Source: a virus. From it: a stretch of 20,255 bases of DNA. The stretch is taken from the IMG/VR virus record IMGVR_UViG_3300021085_000281, positions 1 to 20,255 of that record; one strand, 5' to 3'. The notes under the pieces were generated by a model. The model searched no databases, was not told the origin of the DNA, and was given only the letters and a program-made list of their open reading frames with translations. This document shows positions 4,952 to 19,730 of the stretch, in pieces. A program made the translations under genes and the position numbers. Positions within the stretch are counted from its first letter, which is position 1, and each line of letters opens with the position of its first letter.

Positions 4952-6376
4952 CTATGCTGCGATTTTCTTGAATAACACGAAGTTATTTGCCGCTTGTACA
5001 CATAAACATCTTTCTGATAAGAAGTGAACGTTCATTGCATCCTCGTCGCTTGTAAAGTTTCCACCAACAGATCCAGTGATCCAAGATTTCATCTTTCTAT
5101 CATCCGCTTCAGAAGCTCTGTAACGTACGTGTAAGAATGGTCTTGAAATGTTCTGTCCTAATTGCTGATCGTAAACTGTAGAAGTTCCTGCTGGTACCAA
5201 TACACCTTCAATATCTCCAACTAATCCACGAGTAGTAGCGTCGTTTAAGTATTTCCAGTCAGTCTTATAGAAATCGTAAGAACCTCTTCTGAATCCAGAG
5301 AAACCTAAGTTCAATGCCATTTCAGAGCTGTTATTAAATACTCCATAAGAAGATCCTGTTGCGTAAGCTGAATTAACAGATGCTAACATATTGTCAATTC
5401 CTAAAGAAGCTGATCTATTTAAGAACATCATGTTCTCTTCAATTGATCCTTGCTTGTCTAGTTCTTGTAAAATAACGTCAAAATCGTTAAGTCCATCTGC
5501 TCCACCAAAATCAACATCTGAATAAACTAATCCTCTATCTTCTAGAGCAGAGAATAATCCGTCAGAACCAGTAAGTTGAGTTCCTGCTGCAGTTCCAAAG
5601 TCAGCTGGCGTAATTGGTGCCGCTGCTTTTTCAGCTTCTAACATACTCATTTCTAATTGATCTTCAAAACGAATTCTAGCTTCGTGCTCAGATTTCAAGT
5701 ACCATAAGTACCCAGAAGTTCCAGCCTCAGTAGTAACTTCAACCCATCCAATTTGAGCAGTATCAGAACCGTTCACATTGTATTTATCTCTTAAGATAAT
5801 TGGTTTGTTGTTGAATTGCTCGAAAGATGCATCAACAGAAGTTCCTGCGTTAGAAGTCCCTTTTGCATATTCAGAACCGTATACAAATATCTTAGCTGCT
5901 GCGTGAGCAGTAATAGCTCCTTGATACCCAGCTACAGTTAATGTAACCTCACCTGCTACTGGTGCAGATACTCCAGATACATAAGCTTTCTCCACAACTA
6001 AACCGTTTGCTGAAGCAATAACGATAGTAGCACCTGGGCCAATAACGTTTTGAGAAGCTCCTGCTGCGTTAGCTGGGATAACAACTGTAGTAGCTGTAGT
6101 CACCACTGGATCGTAAGCTGCGTGTAATCTACCTTGCTCAGACCATACTACTACGTCTGAAGCCATAGGCATTTCTGCTCCTACCATACGTAAGAATCCA
6201 GAGATAGTACGGTTTCCGTATCTTTCTACTTCTTTCTCATATACTTCTGGTAAGAACTGTTGTGTAAAATCCATGTCTGATAAAGACAGGTAGTTGTCGT
6301 TAAACAACGTTTGTGTAGGTCGTGGTGTTAAATGCGCCAATGCGCCAGCACTTCCTGTAAATGATCCTAATGCCAT
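4952..6376 (-). CDS. Major capsid protein
   Basis: A 474-residue protein that I identify as the major head protein from gene order (terminase, portal, scaffold-like protein, then this gene) and from sequence type. It has an N-terminal arm, a helical stretch around EVYEKEVERYGNRT (near residues 44-57), and a long helix around residues 220-250 (SEHEARIRFEDQLEMSMLEAE). The C-terminal domain contains WITGSVGGNFTSDEDAMNVH and ends in a strand LCVQAANNFVLFKK. Residues about 90-165 are rich in Ala, Val, Thr and Gly and look like an inserted beta domain. The fold is presumably HK97-like. Base composition is visibly richer in G+C than most flanking genes (about 45% in sampled blocks against 25-30%), which fits codon selection in a very highly expressed gene. 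A hairpin follows the gene. Confidence 0.9.
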   Translation of the reverse strand: MALGSFTGSAGALAHLTPRPTQTLFNDNYLSLSDMDFTQQFLPEVYEKEVERYGNRTISGFLRMVGAEMPMASDVVVWSEQGRLHAAYDPVVTTATTVVIPANAAGASQNVIGPGATIVIASANGLVVEKAYVSGVSAPVAGEVTLTVAGYQGAITAHAAAKIFVYGSEYAKGTSNAGTSVDASFEQFNNKPIILRDKYNVNGSDTAQIGWVEVTTEAGTSGYLWYLKSEHEARIRFEDQLEMSMLEAEKAAAPITPADFGTAAGTQLTGSDGLFSALEDRGLVYSDVDFGGADGLNDFDVILQELDKQGSIEENMMFLNRSASLGIDNMLASVNSAYATGSSYGVFNNSSEMALNLGFSGFRRGSYDFYKTDWKYLNDATTRGLVGDIEGVLVPAGTSTVYDQQLGQNISRPFLHVRYRASEADDRKMKSWITGSVGGNFTSDEDAMNVHFLSERCLCVQAANNFVLFKKIAA

Positions 6377-10031: not shown

Positions 10032-12245
10032 TTATTTTTCTATTAATTTTGATAAACCACCTTGGTTGGTGTATTTAGCTATTTTTAAACTTATTGTTTC
10101 TTTTTGTACTTGAGGTCTAGGGTAATATAAATGTCTATTACAAGCCATTATAGCTAAGCCAGAACTTATGGCCGCATCAAACTTTGTTCTTTTATTTATA
10201 TCAAACCCAGCCCAATCATTTAAAGTAGTATTAAAATACATTGCACCGTACTGACCATCTTCACGCAAACCCACGTGTTTGTCTATATATGTTTCGATAG
10301 CTGCAGCGTGTGCTTGTTTTATATCTTCACTAGAGTTAGGCATTCCACCGATTTCTCTTTCAGTTACAGATAATTTGTTCCACACTTTGTCAGGTCTATT
10401 CATTGAATACCCTCTGTATCCTCTTCTTTTAAAATAATACAACAATCTAGGTTTATTGTTTTCACATAATAAAGGCATTCCATAAAATATACAAGCCATC
10501 AATACATCTTCAAAAAATATCTCTGCGGTTTGTGGTCTAGCTATATATTCTAAAAAGAACGTATTAGCTGGAGCATCTTCTAAACTGAATTTTGTTAAAC
10601 CGTGTAAAGCTCCTTTAGATCCGTGTCCGTCTGTTGTTCCTGATATATCATAACTATCACAACCAAAGGCTCCCATATGCTCGTTACCTGGAGCTTTTAA
10701 TCCTTTATTAATAACTTGCTTGTTTTGTAAATGTCCCCCAGGAACCCAAGATACTAAAAATCTTCCAGATGGATTAGGTGAAAATTTAACCGTAGAATCT
10801 TTTATTCCATTTACCCATTGGAAGCTGCCTCTTGTTAATACATTTGTGTTACCTAAATCCTCGTTGTAATCTATTTGTTCGTATATTTTAACTAAATTAA
10901 ATATACTATTTTTTGTTTCATCTCTAAAAGCGTGCTCTTCTGTTCTCGGAAACTGTCTATAGAATTCATTTAAAGCGTCTTGATCAGACTTTAAACCTTC
11001 AGCTTCATTATTCCAGTGCTCAATAACACCGACGTCTATAACGTCTCCGTATGGCCCTACAACATGTTCTTCAGGCGTATTAAATACAGGGTGTCCGTAT
11101 TCGTCAATAAATCCTTCATAATTCCATTCCATCGGAATGAATAAAGAATATAAACCAGAAGCTGTTTGTCCGTTTCTATTTCTTTTTGTAACATTAGAGT
11201 TACTATATAGTTTCTTAAAATTATCTCCTCCTTTATCTAAAGCGTTCGATGTACTACCCATCATACACTTACCTATAATTCTAGAACCTAGTCTTAAACA
11301 CGTTTTTGTAACTCGCCAGTTATTTAATATATTGTTTGGTCTTTCCCATTTACCACTTTCATCATGTACTAGTAATCTTAGTTTTTCCCCGTCATAAGCG
11401 TTATCACCGGTGTTTTTCCAGTCGACGGTGGTGTCGAGCCCATCCAACGTTTCGGTTTTAGAGGCTTTGGTAATGGACTTTCTGGTAAGTTTGGACGCGG
11501 GGACACGATAGGCAAGTTCCGTTTTCGGCCTGTCCATACCGTCTTGGATCGGTTTAAAGAAGAAGGGATAGTTAACAGAAATGGGTACAACCTTATCTGT
11601 GAACATTTTCTTAGCATCGGCTCCAGATTTGGACAAAATTCCAAACCGTGAATCCGACGATATGGTCGCCATATTAACAGTCTCTCCTGACGCCATGAAT
11701 GAAAAGCCAGAACGTCTGTTCTTGAGATATGACATTCCATAACACCTGGTGTCAGCTTTGCAAGCTTCCCAGAATATGTAGAATAATCTGTTTGATTCCC
11801 TAAAGTCTGGTTGCCCAACATCAATCTTGGACCACTGCAAGTACATAAAGTGAGTACCAGTAATGTAAGTAGCCAAACCTTTATTATTGAACCAATGACC
11901 GTTTTCCCTTTTATTAAATTGTTCATCTATATAGCTTTCCCATTTTAGTTTAAATGACTCTGGATAATCCCTCCAATCAAATATGCTTTCAATTGATTTT
12001 AATTCTTTAGGGTATTCTTCAGGAGTCCATTTTTTATTTGTTTTATCTATACTAGGCGGAACTTTTGGCAAAGCTATCTTTAAATTCTGTATATCGTATA
12101 TTTCACCAATTTGCCCAGTCTTACTTATAACAACGATGTCGTGTTCTTTGTTATATCCATACTCCCACTTTTTAGCTTTATTAAGCCTTGATATTGTGGT
12201 AAGCTTTACTGGCGTTATAATCTTATATAATGTTTGTTCGTACAT
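10032..12245 (-). CDS. terL: Terminase large subunit
   Basis: The 737-residue packaging motor is recognisable from its ATPase and nuclease landmarks. A deviant Walker A lies at about residues 175-182 (KNRRSGFS), Walker B is LLVHDE with D295 and E296, and the coupling motif is MGSTSN near residues 329-334. The C-terminal RNase H-like nuclease has acidic candidates D530 (FGCDSYD), E595 (LLCENNKPR) and D690 (KFDAAISSGLA). Residues 1-110 form an N-terminal extension before the ATPase core. Its ATG overlaps the stop of the upstream gene by one base (TAATG), which implies translational coupling to the candidate small subunit. Codons for residues about 112-283 are markedly richer in G+C than the rest of the gene, with a fairly sharp edge near 11390, suggesting recombination inside the gene. 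Confidence 0.93.
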   Translation of the reverse strand: MYEQTLYKIITPVKLTTISRLNKAKKWEYGYNKEHDIVVISKTGQIGEIYDIQNLKIALPKVPPSIDKTNKKWTPEEYPKELKSIESIFDWRDYPESFKLKWESYIDEQFNKRENGHWFNNKGLATYITGTHFMYLQWSKIDVGQPDFRESNRLFYIFWEACKADTRCYGMSYLKNRRSGFSFMASGETVNMATISSDSRFGILSKSGADAKKMFTDKVVPISVNYPFFFKPIQDGMDRPKTELAYRVPASKLTRKSITKASKTETLDGLDTTVDWKNTGDNAYDGEKLRLLVHDESGKWERPNNILNNWRVTKTCLRLGSRIIGKCMMGSTSNALDKGGDNFKKLYSNSNVTKRNRNGQTASGLYSLFIPMEWNYEGFIDEYGHPVFNTPEEHVVGPYGDVIDVGVIEHWNNEAEGLKSDQDALNEFYRQFPRTEEHAFRDETKNSIFNLVKIYEQIDYNEDLGNTNVLTRGSFQWVNGIKDSTVKFSPNPSGRFLVSWVPGGHLQNKQVINKGLKAPGNEHMGAFGCDSYDISGTTDGHGSKGALHGLTKFSLEDAPANTFFLEYIARPQTAEIFFEDVLMACIFYGMPLLCENNKPRLLYYFKRRGYRGYSMNRPDKVWNKLSVTEREIGGMPNSSEDIKQAHAAAIETYIDKHVGLREDGQYGAMYFNTTLNDWAGFDINKRTKFDAAISSGLAIMACNRHLYYPRPQVQKETISLKIAKYTNQGGLSKLIEK
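11390..11910. other. G+C-rich island inside terL
   Basis: Counted by eye in 60-base blocks, G+C is about 50% at 11401-11520, about 43% at 11521-11580 and 40% at 11761-11880. It is about 23% at 10081-10140 and 28% at 11881-11940. The protein frame continues unbroken through the island. It encodes the segment before and including the deviant Walker A. A long out-of-frame reading frame on the same strand appears only here, as expected from the changed composition. Confidence 0.7.
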
Positions 12246-12520
12246 TACTTAGATCTTTTTTCAGCAAATCCTTTAAAAGATTTTTCTTCTTTTACTTCCG
12301 CTGGTTTTTCGTCAATAATATCTTGTTCAAGTTGTATTCTTGTAAGGATTTCAAAAGCATCAAATATTGCTAGCTTTTTAGTAGCTGCTGCATTTTTTAA
12401 TCTATCAGCAGTTATATCATCTCCGGAATCAACAATAGCTTCTTTGGCTACTTTAATTAATTCCTCAACCGCTTTATGCCCAGCTTGGATTATACTCTTC
12501 TTCGTTTCCTTGATATTCAT
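12245..12520 (-). CDS. Candidate terminase small subunit (91 aa)
   Basis: A 91-residue, mostly helical protein: IIQAGHKAVEELIKVAKEAI, then ADRLKNAAATKKLAIFDAFEI, then an acidic and basic tail. It lies directly upstream of terL with a one-base TAATG overlap, the classic place of the small terminase subunit that recognises packaging sites. Size and helicity fit, but no helix-turn-helix motif is convincing, so the role is inferred from context. The only ATG that preserves the full helix is at 12520, which overlaps the upstream gene by 47 bases in a different frame. No later in-frame Met exists, so the long overlap is probably real. I recall similar proteins in the same position in marine phages. 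Confidence 0.7.
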   Translation of the reverse strand: MNIKETKKSIIQAGHKAVEELIKVAKEAIVDSGDDITADRLKNAAATKKLAIFDAFEILTRIQLEQDIIDEKPAEVKEEKSFKGFAEKRSK

Positions 12521-14097: not shown

Positions 14098-14493
14098 TTA
14101 TTTTTTATTTATTTTTGTTGCTTTTTCCCAAGTTCTTCCTACAAAATAAGCTCCGTAAACGGTAACTAATAGTGTTTGAAATATAGGTATATACTCTTTT
14201 GCTATTTGAAATTCCCCAATGTTTCCATCTGTGAATGCTAAAGCTGTAAATATAACCGTTATATATATAAGTATTAAAGGCCGAATATTTTTTGATAAGT
14301 AACTATCACTCGCCATGTCTGACTTCCAACGATCAGTAACTTGTATTTGAGCATTGTTATCCGCCTGCTCTAATATTTCTTGAACTTGCTTTTTAATAAT
14401 AAGCTTTTCTTCTTCGGTAGTAGTTAGCTTGTCAATAGCGTTGCCTATCTCTTTAACAACGCTACCTGTAAGCCATTGAAATAACTTTTTCAT
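14098..14493 (-). CDS. Holin of the three-TM / gene-transfer-agent holin type (131 aa)
   Basis: Residues 1-60 are a charged helical domain (TTTEEEKLIIKKQVQEILEQ). The family-like sequence WKSDMASDSYLSKNIRP (residues 56-72) follows, then a hydrophobic segment at about 71-88 (LILIYITVIFTALAF) and another at about 100-119 (YIPIFQTLLVTVYGAYFVG), and a basic tail. This order matches the 'Holin of 3TMs' family of phages and gene transfer agents, although only two strong membrane segments are evident here. The protein would form membrane lesions in the inner membrane that allow lysis. No endolysin is identifiable next to it. Its start directly abuts the upstream stop (TAA ATG), so it is likely co-translated with the basic-protein block. 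Confidence 0.82.
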   Translation of the reverse strand: MKKLFQWLTGSVVKEIGNAIDKLTTTEEEKLIIKKQVQEILEQADNNAQIQVTDRWKSDMASDSYLSKNIRPLILIYITVIFTALAFTDGNIGEFQIAKEYIPIFQTLLVTVYGAYFVGRTWEKATKINKK

Positions 14494-15549
14494 TTAGTCC
14501 TTTATCTTAATAGCATCTGCTGCTTGCCCTCTTTTTTTAGTAGCTTTTGCATTTAATCGTGTTTCTTTTCTTTTATACCTTAAAGCTTTTTGCTTGTTGC
14601 CGTTTTCTAAAGCTTGTTGTCCTCTTAACCTTGCTCTTGCTGCTCTATCACTTGCTCTACCTGCTGAACTTGCTTTCCTGTTAGCTTTACGTACTGCTTT
14701 CTTTGAAGGCTTTTCTGTTTTAGTATTACGTTTTACAACTTCTGCTTTAAGCTGTTTTGGATCGAGCTTTGTAGATATTTCTACTTTCTTAATTCCTTCA
14801 GGCTTTATTGTAGTTGCTGCTTTAACTTTTGGTCTTGGTGGAGTGTCTTTTCCTTTGTTTTTAACATCCCATCCTTTACCGGCTTTTTTAGATGCGTTTT
14901 GACGCTTAGCTTCTTTTATATAAGTAGCTTTATCCATTTTGCCGTAAGTCTTTTTATCTCTATTTTTATAAGCAGTATCGTATGAAACTTTTTTAGTTTT
15001 AGTGGTTTGAGTTTTAGTAGTGTCTACTTTAACGTCTTCTTTTTTCTTAGCTCTAGATTTATAAGTACCACTGGCTTTAGCCATTGCATACTCCTTAGCT
15101 GTATACCCCTCGGTACTACCTGCTTTGTTTTTTGTATCGTAGTCGTATAGGTTTTTCTCAAATGATTTAATTCTACCCGCTTGTCTTACACTTCTATTCA
15201 TTGCTGAATCCATTTGTCTAGGATTAACATTTTTAGAAGCAGATTTTGTATTCGCATTTAAAGTAGATACATCTTTTCTATATTGATCTATGTTCTTTTG
15301 ATAATTAGATTTATCTTTTGCTGCTTTTTTTGCTTTGCTTGCAGCTAAGTTGTCGGCTTTTACTTTGTCTTGTCTAGACATTTCGTTTTTAAAATCCGAT
15401 TGCTTTTTAATATTAGGATTCGGGTCTATTTTAGCAGGTGAAGACATTTTCATTTTAATAGGAGCTCCTACGTTAAGTAATGGTTGTGTAATACCTCCTT
15501 TAGTAGTTCTCTTAATTTTCGCCGTTATTGGTGTGTTTTTGAAACTCAT
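14494..15549 (-). CDS. Very basic Lys/Arg-rich protein (351 aa), possible DNA-associated virion protein
   Basis: The protein is dominated by Lys, Ala, Arg and Thr, with long low-complexity stretches (NLAASKAKKAAKDKSNYQKN; KKAVRKANRKASSAGRASDR) and little hydrophobic core. It opens with MSFKNTPITAKIKR, sharing the P-I-T-[AS]-[KR] element with three neighbouring proteins, and has an S-S-P-A-K motif at residues 36-40. A somewhat ordered centre (SYDTAYKNRDKKTYGKMDKA) resembles short Tyr/Lys repeats in marine phage proteins. Such composition suits nucleic-acid binding, for example an internal head protein, but no domain proves this. A 5-base spacer separates its start from the stop of the upstream 51-residue gene, and the holin follows without a gap. 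Confidence 0.72.
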   Translation of the reverse strand: MSFKNTPITAKIKRTTKGGITQPLLNVGAPIKMKMSSPAKIDPNPNIKKQSDFKNEMSRQDKVKADNLAASKAKKAAKDKSNYQKNIDQYRKDVSTLNANTKSASKNVNPRQMDSAMNRSVRQAGRIKSFEKNLYDYDTKNKAGSTEGYTAKEYAMAKASGTYKSRAKKKEDVKVDTTKTQTTKTKKVSYDTAYKNRDKKTYGKMDKATYIKEAKRQNASKKAGKGWDVKNKGKDTPPRPKVKAATTIKPEGIKKVEISTKLDPKQLKAEVVKRNTKTEKPSKKAVRKANRKASSAGRASDRAARARLRGQQALENGNKQKALRYKRKETRLNAKATKKRGQAADAIKIKD

Positions 15550-15554
15550 TTTTT

Positions 15555-15710
15555 TTATTTTTTGTATGGTAACATTTTATTTAGTTTTTCTTTTCTGTGC
15601 TGGCACCCGCACGGGATGTTTAAACCCTCTGAAACTTTTTCTACTAAAGTCTTGATTCCTGTTGCTTTAGTTATTTTTTCTACCGTATCGCCTAGTCCTT
15701 TTGATTTCAT
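15555..15710 (-). CDS. Small Cys-containing phage protein (51 aa), easily missed gene
   Basis: A short frame that fills what otherwise looks like a 160-base gap. From the ATG at 15710 the product is MKSKGLGDTVEKITKATGIK, a short helical linker, then NIPCGCQHRKEKLNKMLPYK. I recall a family of small marine phage proteins with the same order, G-L-G-D-T-[VI]-E-K-I-T-K-A-T-G-I, then a C-G-C pair and a K-E-x-L-N-K-x-x-P-Y end, none with known function. The CGC pair could bind metal with partner residues or form a disulfide. The start overlaps the upstream stop by one base (TAATG), as in other junctions here. An ATG four codons upstream (15722) is possible but less likely. Confidence 0.8.
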   Translation of the reverse strand: MKSKGLGDTVEKITKATGIKTLVEKVSEGLNIPCGCQHRKEKLNKMLPYKK

Positions 15711-16024
15711 TAGCAATTCCATTTTCTTAATGCTAAAGCCTTTCTGGTAGGTTTACCATTTGGTTTTTTCATTGGCCCTTTTACTCCACTCATTCTTGCA
15801 CAAAAAGATTTTCTACGATTAGCAGCTTTACTTCCAGGTTTTAATTTAGAAGGCTTTGTTGTTACAGCGGTTTTTAATTTTGACCCAGGATTTTTTCTTT
15901 TATAATCATCAACACCTTTTTGGTTTAAACCTCCAGATTCCGATTGCCCTTCTTTCCTTGTCCATGCCCCTGTTTTCTTCGCAGGTGAGCAGTTCTTTAT
16001 TTTACTTGTAATTGGTATAGCCAT
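15710..16024 (-). CDS. Small basic protein of a widespread marine-phage type (104 aa; DUF6321-like by recall)
   Basis: Begins MAIPITSKIKNCSPAKKTGA, containing both the shared PITSK element and an SPAK motif. It continues with AWTRKEGQSESGGLNQKGVD, a Lys-rich centre, and a conserved-looking tail RRKSFCARMSGVKGPMKK with TRKALALRKWNC at the end. I recognise this W-T-R-K-E-G ... G-G-L-N-x-K-G ... S-F-C-A-R-M ... A-L-x-K-W pattern from many marine phage genomes, and think it corresponds to DUF6321, unverified. Three Cys residues (near 12, in SFCARM, and the last residue) could bind metal. Function is unknown; the strong positive charge suggests nucleic-acid contact. Both its start (with the upstream stop) and its stop (with the downstream start) form TAATG overlaps. 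Confidence 0.8.
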   Translation of the reverse strand: MAIPITSKIKNCSPAKKTGAWTRKEGQSESGGLNQKGVDDYKRKNPGSKLKTAVTTKPSKLKPGSKAANRRKSFCARMSGVKGPMKKPNGKPTRKALALRKWNC

Positions 16025-16893
16025 TAGTATTTCTTTTTAAACATTGAACCTTTCATTTTGTAAGGAGAACCTTTCATTTTACCTGGAGCTGCTTTAATAG
16101 CTGCTTGTAAATGCTGAGGTAATTGATTTTGGCTACCTTTTAATGCTTTTTTTGCTGGGCTTGTTGATCTCATTTCGTTTGGTGATTTTTTCTTTTCTTC
16201 TTTTTTATTTTTGTTAGCGGCTAGTTCAGCTGCTTTTTGAGCTTTAGCCACTTGCACTTTTTCACTATCTTCTCCAACAGTTTTAGCTCTATCAAAACCG
16301 GCTACATCTCTTGATCCTCCTCTTCTACCAGAAGCCCTTGCTTTAGCATTTCTATCTGCTAATGCTTTAAACTCTTTTTGCTCAGCCGCATTTTCTTCTG
16401 CTTTAACTTGTTTTTTCCAATCTCTTCTACTAACGCCTTCGGGTCTTTGTTTTAATTTAGATTTTCTTATTTGCTTTTGGTCCTTTTTAATAGATCTTTG
16501 CATTCTAGATATTTGCCAAGGTTCCATTACATCAAATTTTTGAGCTACTTTTATTGGAACTTCACCCATTTCTTTTTCTCCTTTAACAACCGTCTCCTCT
16601 ACTACAGTTCCAGTTCCTTCGAATTTATGAAAACCAGAACAACCAGGTGTACCCACAGGTTTACCTTTACAGTATTCATTTTGTTTTGCCCATTTTTTTT
16701 CTGCTTCGCCTGTTGCTTTTGTCCCTGTGAAAGTTTCAGTAGGTCCTTGGGTTACTGTTTTAGTAGATTTTACATCTTCTCCTTGACTTTCATAAAAGCC
16801 TTTAGCTTGATCGTCATTCTCAGGATCTATAGCTTGAGACGCTTGACTTAACAAGGGAGATCTTTTTACTCTACTTGTGATTGGTAAGTTCAT
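16024..16893 (-). CDS. Basic low-complexity protein with PITS N-terminus and SPAK motif (289 aa)
   Basis: Opens with MNLPITSRVKRSPLLSQ. Residues 25-120 are polar with a possible Cys pair (EYCKGKPVGTPGCSGFHKF). Residues 120-235 form long Lys/Arg/Ala-rich helices (QISRMQRSIKKDQKQIRKSK). The C-terminus has SPAKKALKGSQNQLPQHLQ followed by AAIKAAPGKMKGSPYKMKGS, a short repeat of K-M-K-G-S. I recall the A-L-x-G-x-Q-x-x-L-P-x-x-L-x-x-x-I-x-A-A-P pattern from proteins of uncultured marine phages, of unknown role. Low complexity and charge argue for a nucleic-acid-associated or structural protein. The start follows the upstream stop after one base (TAATATG), and the stop overlaps the next start (TAATG). 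Confidence 0.74.
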   Translation of the reverse strand: MNLPITSRVKRSPLLSQASQAIDPENDDQAKGFYESQGEDVKSTKTVTQGPTETFTGTKATGEAEKKWAKQNEYCKGKPVGTPGCSGFHKFEGTGTVVEETVVKGEKEMGEVPIKVAQKFDVMEPWQISRMQRSIKKDQKQIRKSKLKQRPEGVSRRDWKKQVKAEENAAEQKEFKALADRNAKARASGRRGGSRDVAGFDRAKTVGEDSEKVQVAKAQKAAELAANKNKKEEKKKSPNEMRSTSPAKKALKGSQNQLPQHLQAAIKAAPGKMKGSPYKMKGSMFKKKY

Positions 16894-17102: not shown

Positions 17103-17483
17103 TTACTGTTTTTTATATGCTTCTCTTTCCCATTCAAAATCCCCGCCTTCTTGCGCTGACTTACCGGTTTCTTCGTCTATTAATTGCCCACCTACTCTTT
17201 TATAAACTCTAGCTGGTGACTTTGTGTCCATTTTCCAAGTTACTTTATTGTCATCATAATGCAATCTTCCCTGAGCCATTTGATCTAAATGAACTTTTTC
17301 GTGATTTACAGCTTCCTCTTTTGCTTTGCCTTTTAATGACTTGTCTATAAATATAGTACCATCATTATTAGCTTCACCTAATATATCCCCTTCTAAATCT
17401 TTTTTAAAAACAGGTGTATTATATGTAGAAGTTTCTTTGTCTATTCCAACAAGATCTGCAAAATCTTTTAATTTAAAGTTCAT
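17103..17483 (-). CDS. HExxH metallopeptidase-like protein (126 aa)
   Basis: Residues 58-65 read AVNHEKVH, a zinc-binding HExxH motif (H61, E62, H65) preceded by a helix (KGKAKEEAVN). A candidate third ligand is E119 or E121 in WEREAY near the C-terminus, which resembles the E-x-x-A helix of ImmA/IrrE-type (M78) and related gluzincin peptidases. A beta segment (GTIFIDKSLKG) comes just before the motif, as in these folds. At 126 residues it is a minimal catalytic domain without signal peptide or membrane segment, so it should act in the cytoplasm or in the virion. A TKSPARVYKR segment (residues 87-96) echoes the S-P-x-[KR] motifs of the neighbouring basic proteins. Head-protein processing, repressor cleavage or host-protein degradation are all possible; the substrate is unknown. 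Its start forms TAATG with the upstream stop. Confidence 0.75.
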   Translation of the reverse strand: MNFKLKDFADLVGIDKETSTYNTPVFKKDLEGDILGEANNDGTIFIDKSLKGKAKEEAVNHEKVHLDQMAQGRLHYDDNKVTWKMDTKSPARVYKRVGGQLIDEETGKSAQEGGDFEWEREAYKKQ

Positions 17484-17923
17484 TATCTTTCTTTGTCTCG
17501 TATCATATCATCAATAGCTTTATTAAAAACTTTATCTGTATATGTTCTGTTATTATAAAATACACTTCTTGCCGATGTTGGTAGATCTTCTTCTGCTAGT
17601 AATATTCTATATATTCTACTTATTAAATGCTTGCCTTTAGTTGATACTTTATATACTGCGTACTTTGAACTTGTTCTGTTACGCTCTTTAAAAACATCTA
17701 TCCATCCTTTCCTGCGCATTCTTTCCCATCTGTTTTTATCCCATGTATATGTGTAAACACCATTAATAAAATCATTACGAGTAAAAAATTGTTTACAATC
17801 TAAATACACAAGTAATTCTAAGTCAGCGTCTTTCAAACCATAAGTCTTACAGGCCCATCTTCTAACAAGCCTGTAATACTTTAATAGGTTCATATCTCTG
17901 AGATCTGAAGGGGTTAGTCTCAT
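17483..17923 (-). CDS. Winged-helix DNA-binding-like protein (146 aa)
   Basis: Residues about 25-115 have the secondary structure order of a MarR-like winged helix: a helix (KDADLELLVYLDCKQFF), a helix-turn-helix region (TRNDFINGVYTYTWDKNRWE), the recognition-end element RMRRKGWIDVF, a beta wing rich in Arg and Ser (KERNRTSSKYAVYKVS), then a long helix (TKGKHLISRIYRILLAEEDL). The wing and helix content suggests sequence-specific DNA binding. It could be a late-gene regulator or a packaging or structural accessory. The start overlaps the GroES stop by four bases (ATGA), so it is translated with the chaperonin pair. I recall relatives in marine phages without a tested function. Confidence 0.74.
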   Translation of the reverse strand: MRLTPSDLRDMNLLKYYRLVRRWACKTYGLKDADLELLVYLDCKQFFTRNDFINGVYTYTWDKNRWERMRRKGWIDVFKERNRTSSKYAVYKVSTKGKHLISRIYRILLAEEDLPTSARSVFYNNRTYTDKVFNKAIDDMIRDKER

Positions 17924-18177
17924 TCTACTATAACTACATCTCCTACAGTAATCACATAATAAAACTTATCGTTCCATTCAATACCATGTCCAGCGTGTCG
18001 ATCATATCTTATAATATCATCTTTATTAATGCCTTCAATTTTATCTCCTACACTTATAACTTTAGCTTTTAAATATCTAATGTCAGTGTCTTGCTTTTCC
18101 GTTAATTCAATACCTCCTACTTTCTTCGGAGCCTCTTTGATTTTTTCTATAATTATATAATAATTGATTGCTTTCAT
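17920..18177 (-). CDS. groES: Phage GroES-like co-chaperonin (85 aa)
   Basis: This lid protein of the GroEL machine has the opening strand MKAINYYIIIEKI, a mobile loop APKKVGGIELTEKQ (residues 16-29) with the GroEL-binding I-x-L tripeptide at I23-L25, the strand KAKVISVG, and closing strands GIEWNDKFYYVIT and VVIVE. Compared with E. coli GroES (97 aa), the shortening falls between VISVG and the DDIIRYD strand, where the roof hairpin of bacterial GroES normally lies. A His-Ala-Gly-His element (residues 61-64) occupies the place of the usual FNDGYG turn. The ATG shares one base with the GroEL stop (TAATG), ensuring paired translation. The gene order, GroEL before GroES, is the reverse of the usual bacterial groES-groEL operon. 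Confidence is high for the family; partnership with the adjacent GroEL is inferred. Confidence 0.9.
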   Translation of the reverse strand: MKAINYYIIIEKIKEAPKKVGGIELTEKQDTDIRYLKAKVISVGDKIEGINKDDIIRYDRHAGHGIEWNDKFYYVITVGDVVIVE

Positions 18178-19730
18178 TAAACCAATCTTTTATTACTAAT
18201 AACACAATCTGCAGATACAATAGTTGTTACAACACTTACAGCATTTTTAAGAGCTGATTTTGTAACTAGTACAGGATCTATAATACCAGCTTTAATCATA
18301 TTAACTTCTTTGCCGGTCTTAACGTCTATACCTCTATTCTTTATAGTCTGCTTTTTAATTTCTATAATGCCAGCATTGTCTAGAATAGTATAGTAAGGTG
18401 ATTTAATTGCTTCAAACAATATCTCTTCCCCTTTATTTTTAGCTTTTAAACTAGTAGCTGCATTCAATAAAGCAACACCTCCACCAGCAACAATCCCTTC
18501 TTTGTAAGCTGCTTTAGTTGCGTGTATTGCATCCTCTACTCTATCCTTTTTTTCTTTAAGCTCTACTTCTGAGTCTGCTCCCACATATATAATACCAACT
18601 TTTCCAGTTAGCATTGATAATCTTTGTTCTAGCTTTTTCTTAAAAAAAGGATTAGTTTCGGTTTCAATGCTTTTTGTAACCTCTTCAACTCTAGCTTTTA
18701 CGTCTACTGAATTTTCTATTTGAAGTACAGTTGATTTTTCATCTGTAACTGATTTCTTAACGCTACCTAATACATCAGGGTTAATTAAATCTAAATCATC
18801 TCCAAGCTCTTCATTTATTATCATAGCCCCAGTAAGTAATGCTAAATCATCCATAGTATCTTGTTTTGTTAATCCAAAACCAGGTACATCTACAATATTA
18901 ACTTTTATATTACCTTTAACTTTATTTGATAATAATGTAGCATACGGCTGTTGATCCATGTCTGCTACAATCAATAAACTTCTTTTACTCTTTATAACGT
19001 GTTCTAAGACACTTTGTATTTTTCTTATATTAGGAATAGGGGAAGAAACAATAAGCACGTAAGGATCGTTTAAAACAGCTGTGTGCTTGTCTTTATCCGT
19101 TATTAAATGCGTTGATTTTAATCCACTATCAAATTGTACACCTTCAACAAAATCCACATAAGTTTCATTTGTATCAGATTCTTCCATTAATACAATTCCA
19201 TTTTTTCCAACTTTTTCATAAGCTTCTCCAATTTTGACCCCAAGCTCTTTGTCATTATTGCAGCTAATGATAGCAACGTTTTGTAGCATTTGGCCTTTAA
19301 CAGGAGTGCTGGTCTTATCAAGATATACTTTAACTTTGTCAGCACCGCTAATAACGCCTGCTTTAAGTTCTCTAACTTTTTCTTCATCTAAATGTTTGTT
19401 TGTGATCTTCAATAAAGAGTTAGCAAGAACGGTAGATGTTGTCGTACCGTCTCCTGCCTCTCTCACAGTGTTTCTAGCTGCTTGCTTTATAAGGGTTGCT
19501 CCTATGTTTTCGACCGGATGTAGTAAGACTACGCTCTCTGCAACGGTTACTCCGTCTTTTGTTATTACCGGCCTGCCTAAAGCGTCTTCGTAAATTACGC
19601 ATTTACCTGAAGCTCCTAATGTGGACTTCACTGCGTTAGCTAACTTTTCGACGCCTGCTATTATTTGATTATTTGCTTCGTTCCCGAACGTGAGTGTTTT
19701 AACTATCTCACTTGGATTATTGTATTCCAT
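18177..19730 (-). CDS. groEL: Phage-encoded chaperonin GroEL (517 aa)
   Basis: This ATP-driven folding chamber has an equatorial domain with STLGASGK (residues 36-43), ITKDGVTVAE holding D59, and EAGDGTTTSTV holding D94 of the ATP site. The apical domain covers roughly residues 195-380 (VEGVQFDSGL; VDVPGFG at 280-286). The return to the equatorial domain has RVEDAIHATKAA with D400, the residue equivalent to the hydrolytic D398 of E. coli, and IVAGGGVALL near 413-422. All three key aspartates are present, so ATPase activity is expected. The C-terminus stops at SNKRLV, without the Gly-Gly-Met tail of bacterial GroEL (about 548 aa). Bases 19441-19720, encoding residues 1-97, are richer in G+C than the rest of the gene. 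It is coupled to GroES by TAATG. Virion proteins are the likely clients. Confidence 0.96.
   Translation of the reverse strand: MEYNNPSEIVKTLTFGNEANNQIIAGVEKLANAVKSTLGASGKCVIYEDALGRPVITKDGVTVAESVVLLHPVENIGATLIKQAARNTVREAGDGTTTSTVLANSLLKITNKHLDEEKVRELKAGVISGADKVKVYLDKTSTPVKGQMLQNVAIISCNNDKELGVKIGEAYEKVGKNGIVLMEESDTNETYVDFVEGVQFDSGLKSTHLITDKDKHTAVLNDPYVLIVSSPIPNIRKIQSVLEHVIKSKRSLLIVADMDQQPYATLLSNKVKGNIKVNIVDVPGFGLTKQDTMDDLALLTGAMIINEELGDDLDLINPDVLGSVKKSVTDEKSTVLQIENSVDVKARVEEVTKSIETETNPFFKKKLEQRLSMLTGKVGIIYVGADSEVELKEKKDRVEDAIHATKAAYKEGIVAGGGVALLNAATSLKAKNKGEEILFEAIKSPYYTILDNAGIIEIKKQTIKNRGIDVKTGKEVNMIKAGIIDPVLVTKSALKNAVSVVTTIVSADCVISNKRLV

Follow-up and report, generated by a model that had tools for sequence, protein, structure and literature searches.

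Why would a virus encode both GroEL and GroES, and which proteins would such a machine fold? These questions are raised by a 20,255-base stretch of DNA (hereafter, the window), which is the whole of the virus record IMGVR_UViG_3300021085_000281 in IMG/VR. A sequence-only reading of this DNA had described a complete GroEL-GroES pair, had treated it as a two-part machine, and had considered so full a set to be unusual for a phage. Pfam, PHROG and fold searches bear out the first of these points: both genes are present and complete (Table 1). The machine, however, appears to have three parts rather than two, since a second GroES-like protein, encoded beside the terminase, had been missed. We hypothesize, with a probability of roughly 0.7, that GroEL, a roofless GroES lid and this tandem Cpn10 make up a chaperonin set with which the phage folds its virion proteins.

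Table 1. Positions of the chaperonin genes and of the packaging and head genes discussed in the text
Feature	Coordinates	Strand	Evidence
groEL: 517-aa group I chaperonin subunit	18177-19730	(-)	Pfam, PHROG, ATP-site alignment to E. coli GroEL, tree
groES: 85-aa Cpn10 co-chaperonin without roof hairpin	17920-18177	(-)	Pfam Cpn10, 24-relative alignment, AF2 model, fold search
TAATG stop/start overlap of groEL and groES	18175-18179	(-)	Sequence; overlap kept in kind among relatives
Putative tandem two-domain Cpn10-like protein, 196 aa	12474-13064	(-)	PHROG, AF2/Cpn20 fold match, relatives' Pfam Cpn10, half-by-half profile comparison
Terminase large subunit (TerL), constant neighbour of the tandem protein	10032-12245	(-)	PHROG (E = 2e-165); synteny
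Virion structural protein, 474 aa, probable major capsid protein	4952-6376	(-)	PHROG virion structural protein (E = 1e-101)

The window GroEL matches Pfam Cpn60_TCP1 (E = 3e-49) over positions 1-489 of 490, that is, across all three domains, and PHROG 'chaperonin groEL' (E = 3e-135); in full-length alignment, group I chaperonins are the solved structures nearest to it. The catalytic residues that had been described as intact are so: D59, D94 and D400 are the counterparts of E. coli D52, D87 and D398, and neither this trio nor the GDGTTT loop varies among 99 viral GroEL relatives. The match of the window GroES to Pfam Cpn10 is modest (31.3 bits, where the cut-off is 21.1); the top fold matches of its AF2 model (pLDDT 89) are GroES/Hsp10 structures, with T4 gp31 further down. 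The GGIEL mobile loop, which had also been recognized, occupies residues 21-25. Both genes are under purifying selection, with a median dN/dS of about 0.1 for groEL and values of 0.06-0.15 for groES.

The pair is viral, not bacterial. In 80 of the 80 IMG/VR contigs kept by a GroEL search, a single strand carries groEL, groES, a 146-aa ORF and a 126-aa ORF in this order; the tandem gene and TerL follow downstream, on that same strand, in most of these contigs. In a maximum-likelihood tree, the window GroEL falls with 100/100 support into a clade of 18 rows, from which the bacterial sequences stand apart; the nearest neighbours of this clade are elemoF, Panino and Manatee, through a deeper join that is weakly supported and has long branches. 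Furthermore, pairwise distances of GroEL, GroES, the tandem protein and TerL correlate with one another (r 0.85-0.93), which fits co-inheritance of all four. The window GroEL is matched by 263 records of the phage collection, a few of which are evidently bacterial sequence, and our scan of bacterial genomes with the same query returned a single match: one short MAG contig. This 4.6-kb contig of a Maricaulis MAG (L167) carries a GroEL of the phage clade (64% identity), and is probably a viral contig that was binned with the MAG. Bacterial contamination, or recent acquisition from a host, could draw on that contig, and we find either scarcely credible: numerous independent contigs show the genes in synteny with terminase and further genes of the virion, their GroEL clade is separate from bacterial GroELs, and cultured phages have related GroEL-GroES pairs. 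Phylogeny had been proposed as a check on contamination; the tree, taken with the conserved viral synteny, rules it out. The window phage is related to podovirus-like phages of flavobacteria, and its cultured relatives infect Bacteroidota.

The two genes are arranged on the minus strand with groEL first, and base 18177 is common to the end of groEL and the start of groES (TAATG). Across 103 loci, which include some overlapping stretches of one contig, this junction is a 1-base overlap in 60, a 4-base overlap in 26 and an overlap of 14-17 bases in 15. In the window, groES in turn overlaps the next ORF by 4 bases, and a 4-base overlap is found there in 81 loci. The reversed order and the TAATG overlap that had been reported are thus real, and conserved in kind; the translational coupling that had been asserted along with them is plausible, because the overlap is conserved across loci. 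The head and packaging genes are co-oriented with the pair, again as had been described, though roughly a dozen ORFs and 5.7 kb separate groES from TerL, which lies downstream of it. The order of the two genes was reportedly linked to GroEL phylogeny in the work of Marine and colleagues (2017) on virioplankton chaperonins.

The view that a full phage pair is unusual finds no support: pairs are annotated in Elemovirus, MW202828, phi38:1 and immuto, and both GroEL and GroES homologues occur in some phages (introduction of PMC7185714), which rules out a 'first full phage pair'. Indeed, cultured phages of marine flavobacteria already have annotated GroEL-GroES pairs, even reversed and overlapping ones. 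The window shows an Elemovirus-type locus: as in that group (Flavobacterium phage vB_FspP_elemo group, NC_055853), groEL is followed by groES with a one-base overlap, and a tandem co-chaperonin lies beside TerL, in Elemovirus directly before TerL and the portal and capsid genes. The Elemovirus GroEL is 36.5% identical to that of the window, and the pair is, unlike in the window, on the strand opposite to TerL and the head genes. The ATP loop of this GroEL (NC_055853 24484-26046) reads GDSTTC, against GDGTTT in the window, a difference that may affect ATP hydrolysis. MW202828, an uncultured podovirus from Manatee Spring, also has the EL-ES order, a tandem homologue, the small ORF and a TerL that is 62% identical; it departs from the window in its GroEL (35% identical), in the EL-ES overlap and in the annotation of the tandem protein as 'hypothetical'. 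Cellulophaga phage phi38:1 (Pervagoviridae) has a GroEL, a small Cpn10 and, ahead of TerL, a tandem 'co-chaperonin GroES', but its GroES is upstream of GroEL with one ORF between them. GroES also precedes GroEL, unlike in the window, in the annotated pair of immuto, and a GroES-like ORF lies upstream of the GroEL of DAC16. Maribacter phage Panino (PP540027) shares with the window a GroEL, a tandem protein adjoining TerL and a Cpn10 downstream of GroEL, and differs in having an ORF between the two genes and a GroES that is annotated as hypothetical; this GroES (PP540027 68128-68394), left without a name, scores above the Pfam Cpn10 cut-off. GroEL has been found in 36 environmental genomes of the Bacteroidetes phage group that includes phi38:1 (PMC5332604), and peptides of the phi38:1 GroEL were detected in infected cells by mass spectrometry (PMC13288928).

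The third component is the 196-aa protein, which is parted from TerL by one small overlapping ORF. It matches PHROG 'co-chaperonin GroES', and it lies below Pfam detection: sequence searches of Pfam and the PDB gave no meaningful match to it. Its AF2 model (pLDDT 81) has as its best PDB fold match the Chlamydomonas Cpn20 chain 7ekq_R, over the whole length (E = 3e-5, TM 0.53, 14% identity). The C-terminal halves of its relatives in phi18:3 and phi38:1 exceed the Pfam Cpn10 cut-off, and when the halves of the window protein were each set against the Cpn10 profile, in a single comparison, the C-half gave 96% probability (E = 5e-9) and the N-half 77% (E = 2e-5). Given the fold match, the relatives' Pfam hits and these profile comparisons, the protein is best read as a tandem, two-domain Cpn10, with the N-half as the weaker case. 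It would then resemble chloroplast Cpn20, which has two Cpn10-like domains per chain and occurs beside a one-domain Cpn10 (PMC5780408); unlike the phage protein, whose co-chaperonin activity is putative, Cpn20 is a protein of plant and algal organelles. The tandem gene itself is already known, since its relatives in cultured phages are annotated as GroES or cpn10, and since cpn10 is listed among the Pervagoviridae core proteins (PMC8776804). We found no description of a tandem Cpn10 architecture in phages in the literature searched, from which only a chloroplast review surfaced. Each of the 28 records searched, phi18:3 among them, carries the tandem protein, with a Cpn10 match in 26 and a GroEL in 25. 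The tandem gene ends in another gene: its last 47 bases (12474-12520) overlap the start of a 91-aa ORF in another frame. Within the clade, the C-terminal tail of the protein, YEYQGNEEEYNPSWA, hardly varies, and the double coding may be the reason.

Might the tandem protein be something other than a lid? Its gene has a constant place directly before TerL, its sequence similarity to Cpn10 is weak, and it evolves faster than true GroES, albeit under purifying selection (dN/dS 0.18-0.27). Moreover, the complete genome of phi18:3 encodes both co-chaperonins, the tandem one beside TerL, and no GroEL. All of this would suit a Cpn10 fold that DNA packaging or head assembly has taken over, where it might, for instance, stand in for a small terminase subunit. 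We judge such a role rather unlikely in view of the whole-length fold match to Cpn20, and of a low-confidence stretch of the model, near residues 11-40, that is situated where a mobile loop would be expected and contains a G-x-x-L-x-L motif. Most probably, the protein serves as an additional lid, or as a subunit of a lid in which it mixes with the small GroES as Cpn20 does with Cpn10.

The alignments also bear on how the phage GroEL might operate. In its apical groove (E. coli numbering), L237 is kept, and the replacements Y203H, L234Q and V264A/S are found in all or nearly all relatives; because of these replacements, binding of both client and lid could be weak or different. The inter-ring segment is some 5 residues shorter than in E. 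coli, such that E461, S463 and V464 have no counterpart (the placement of the gap is uncertain); R452 is not retained among the 99 relatives, and a second loop, the one around E434, is shorter as well. R452, E461, S463 and V464 are the positions that are altered in the E. coli single-ring GroEL mutant. Since these inter-ring contact residues are missing or replaced in the 99 relatives, the alignment suggests a single ring, or a weakly paired one, bearing in mind that loss of contacts is no proof of a single ring. The single-ring GroEL of E. coli can be functional once its affinity for the lid is lowered (PMC5575113), and the changes at L234, Y203 and V264 in the phage groove would fit a lowered lid affinity.

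As for the lid, an alignment of 24 relatives indicates that the outer hydrophobic positions of the mobile-loop tripeptide I23-E24-L25 are kept, and that the central Glu is nearly invariant in the clade. E24 stands in place of V26 of E. coli GroES, in which GroEL binding was abolished by I25D and L27D but not by V26D (PMC5575113). We considered that GroES E24 and GroEL Q239 (E. coli L234) might have changed together, and dropped the idea because one related locus, L140, combines the Gln with an Ile in the loop. The roof hairpin is absent from the window GroES in the alignment. T4 gp31 is likewise a phage Cpn10 fold without roof loops, and there the missing roof is considered helpful for gp23, the large capsid protein (PMC6318259). 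T4, unlike the window phage, lacks a GroEL of its own, and gp31 works with that of the host. A roofless GroES together with a GroEL without the E. coli inter-ring contact residues suggests altered mechanics. One could envisage a private single-ring chaperonin that is adapted to a single virion protein or a few of them, and whose lid mixes one- and two-domain Cpn10: three tandem chains plus one small chain, for example, would supply seven domains, a kind of mixing otherwise described for chloroplasts. We regard this combined picture as improbable.

In the chaperonin set that we prefer, the GroEL ring protein would bind ATP and unfolded phage proteins. The small roofless GroES, probably produced by overlapping translation of the shared message, would be its private lid: the lid would close the chamber, and the protein would fold inside. 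Abundant proteins of the virion, the probable 474-aa capsid protein for one, are the likely clients, in the way that gp31 serves gp23 in T4. The tandem protein may possibly be used with the host GroEL too. That the phage GroEL-GroES folds virion proteins is a reasonable inference; in most contigs of the window clade, the pair is co-oriented and syntenic with the head cluster. Elsewhere the setting differs: the Elemovirus pair is on the opposite strand to the head genes, in phi38:1 and immuto the pair sits among DNA replication genes, and phi18:3 has kept a tandem gene beside TerL, and a short GroES, without GroEL. These observations would favour a division of labour in which GroEL-GroES acts mainly on early or replication proteins, or sustains host proteins through the infection, leaving virion proteins to the tandem protein and the host GroEL; with the arrangement in the window clade against it, we consider this a contender, yet an unlikely one.

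The window pair represents one more phage family that brings its own folding machine. The more useful observation is that a group of phages has kept two kinds of lid, the tandem one beside the terminase even where there is no GroEL, along with a GroEL that lacks the inter-ring contact residues of E. coli. Two questions follow: whether a natural GroEL of this kind can act as a single ring and go on cycling with its lid, and whether phages, like chloroplasts, have evolved a tandem lid.

Several other ORFs in the window deserve mention. The 146-aa ORF (17483-17923), conserved beside groES, belongs to phrog_17028, which has no assigned function, and looks winged-helix-like by eye; in MW202828, its homologue seems to be the ORF that carries the annotation 'repressor protein'. 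The 126-aa ORF (17103-17483) has no Pfam match and contains a zinc-protease-like motif, HEKVH (HExxH). A holin (phrog_3427, E = 2e-26) is encoded at 14098-14493. Two lysine-rich proteins (14494-15549 and 16024-16893) have no PHROG matches and occur in only part of the relatives. Finally, the 104-aa protein at 15710-16024 has the C-terminus SFCARMSG...ALRKWNC, and several far larger phage proteins in PHROGs terminate in the same C-terminal domain.
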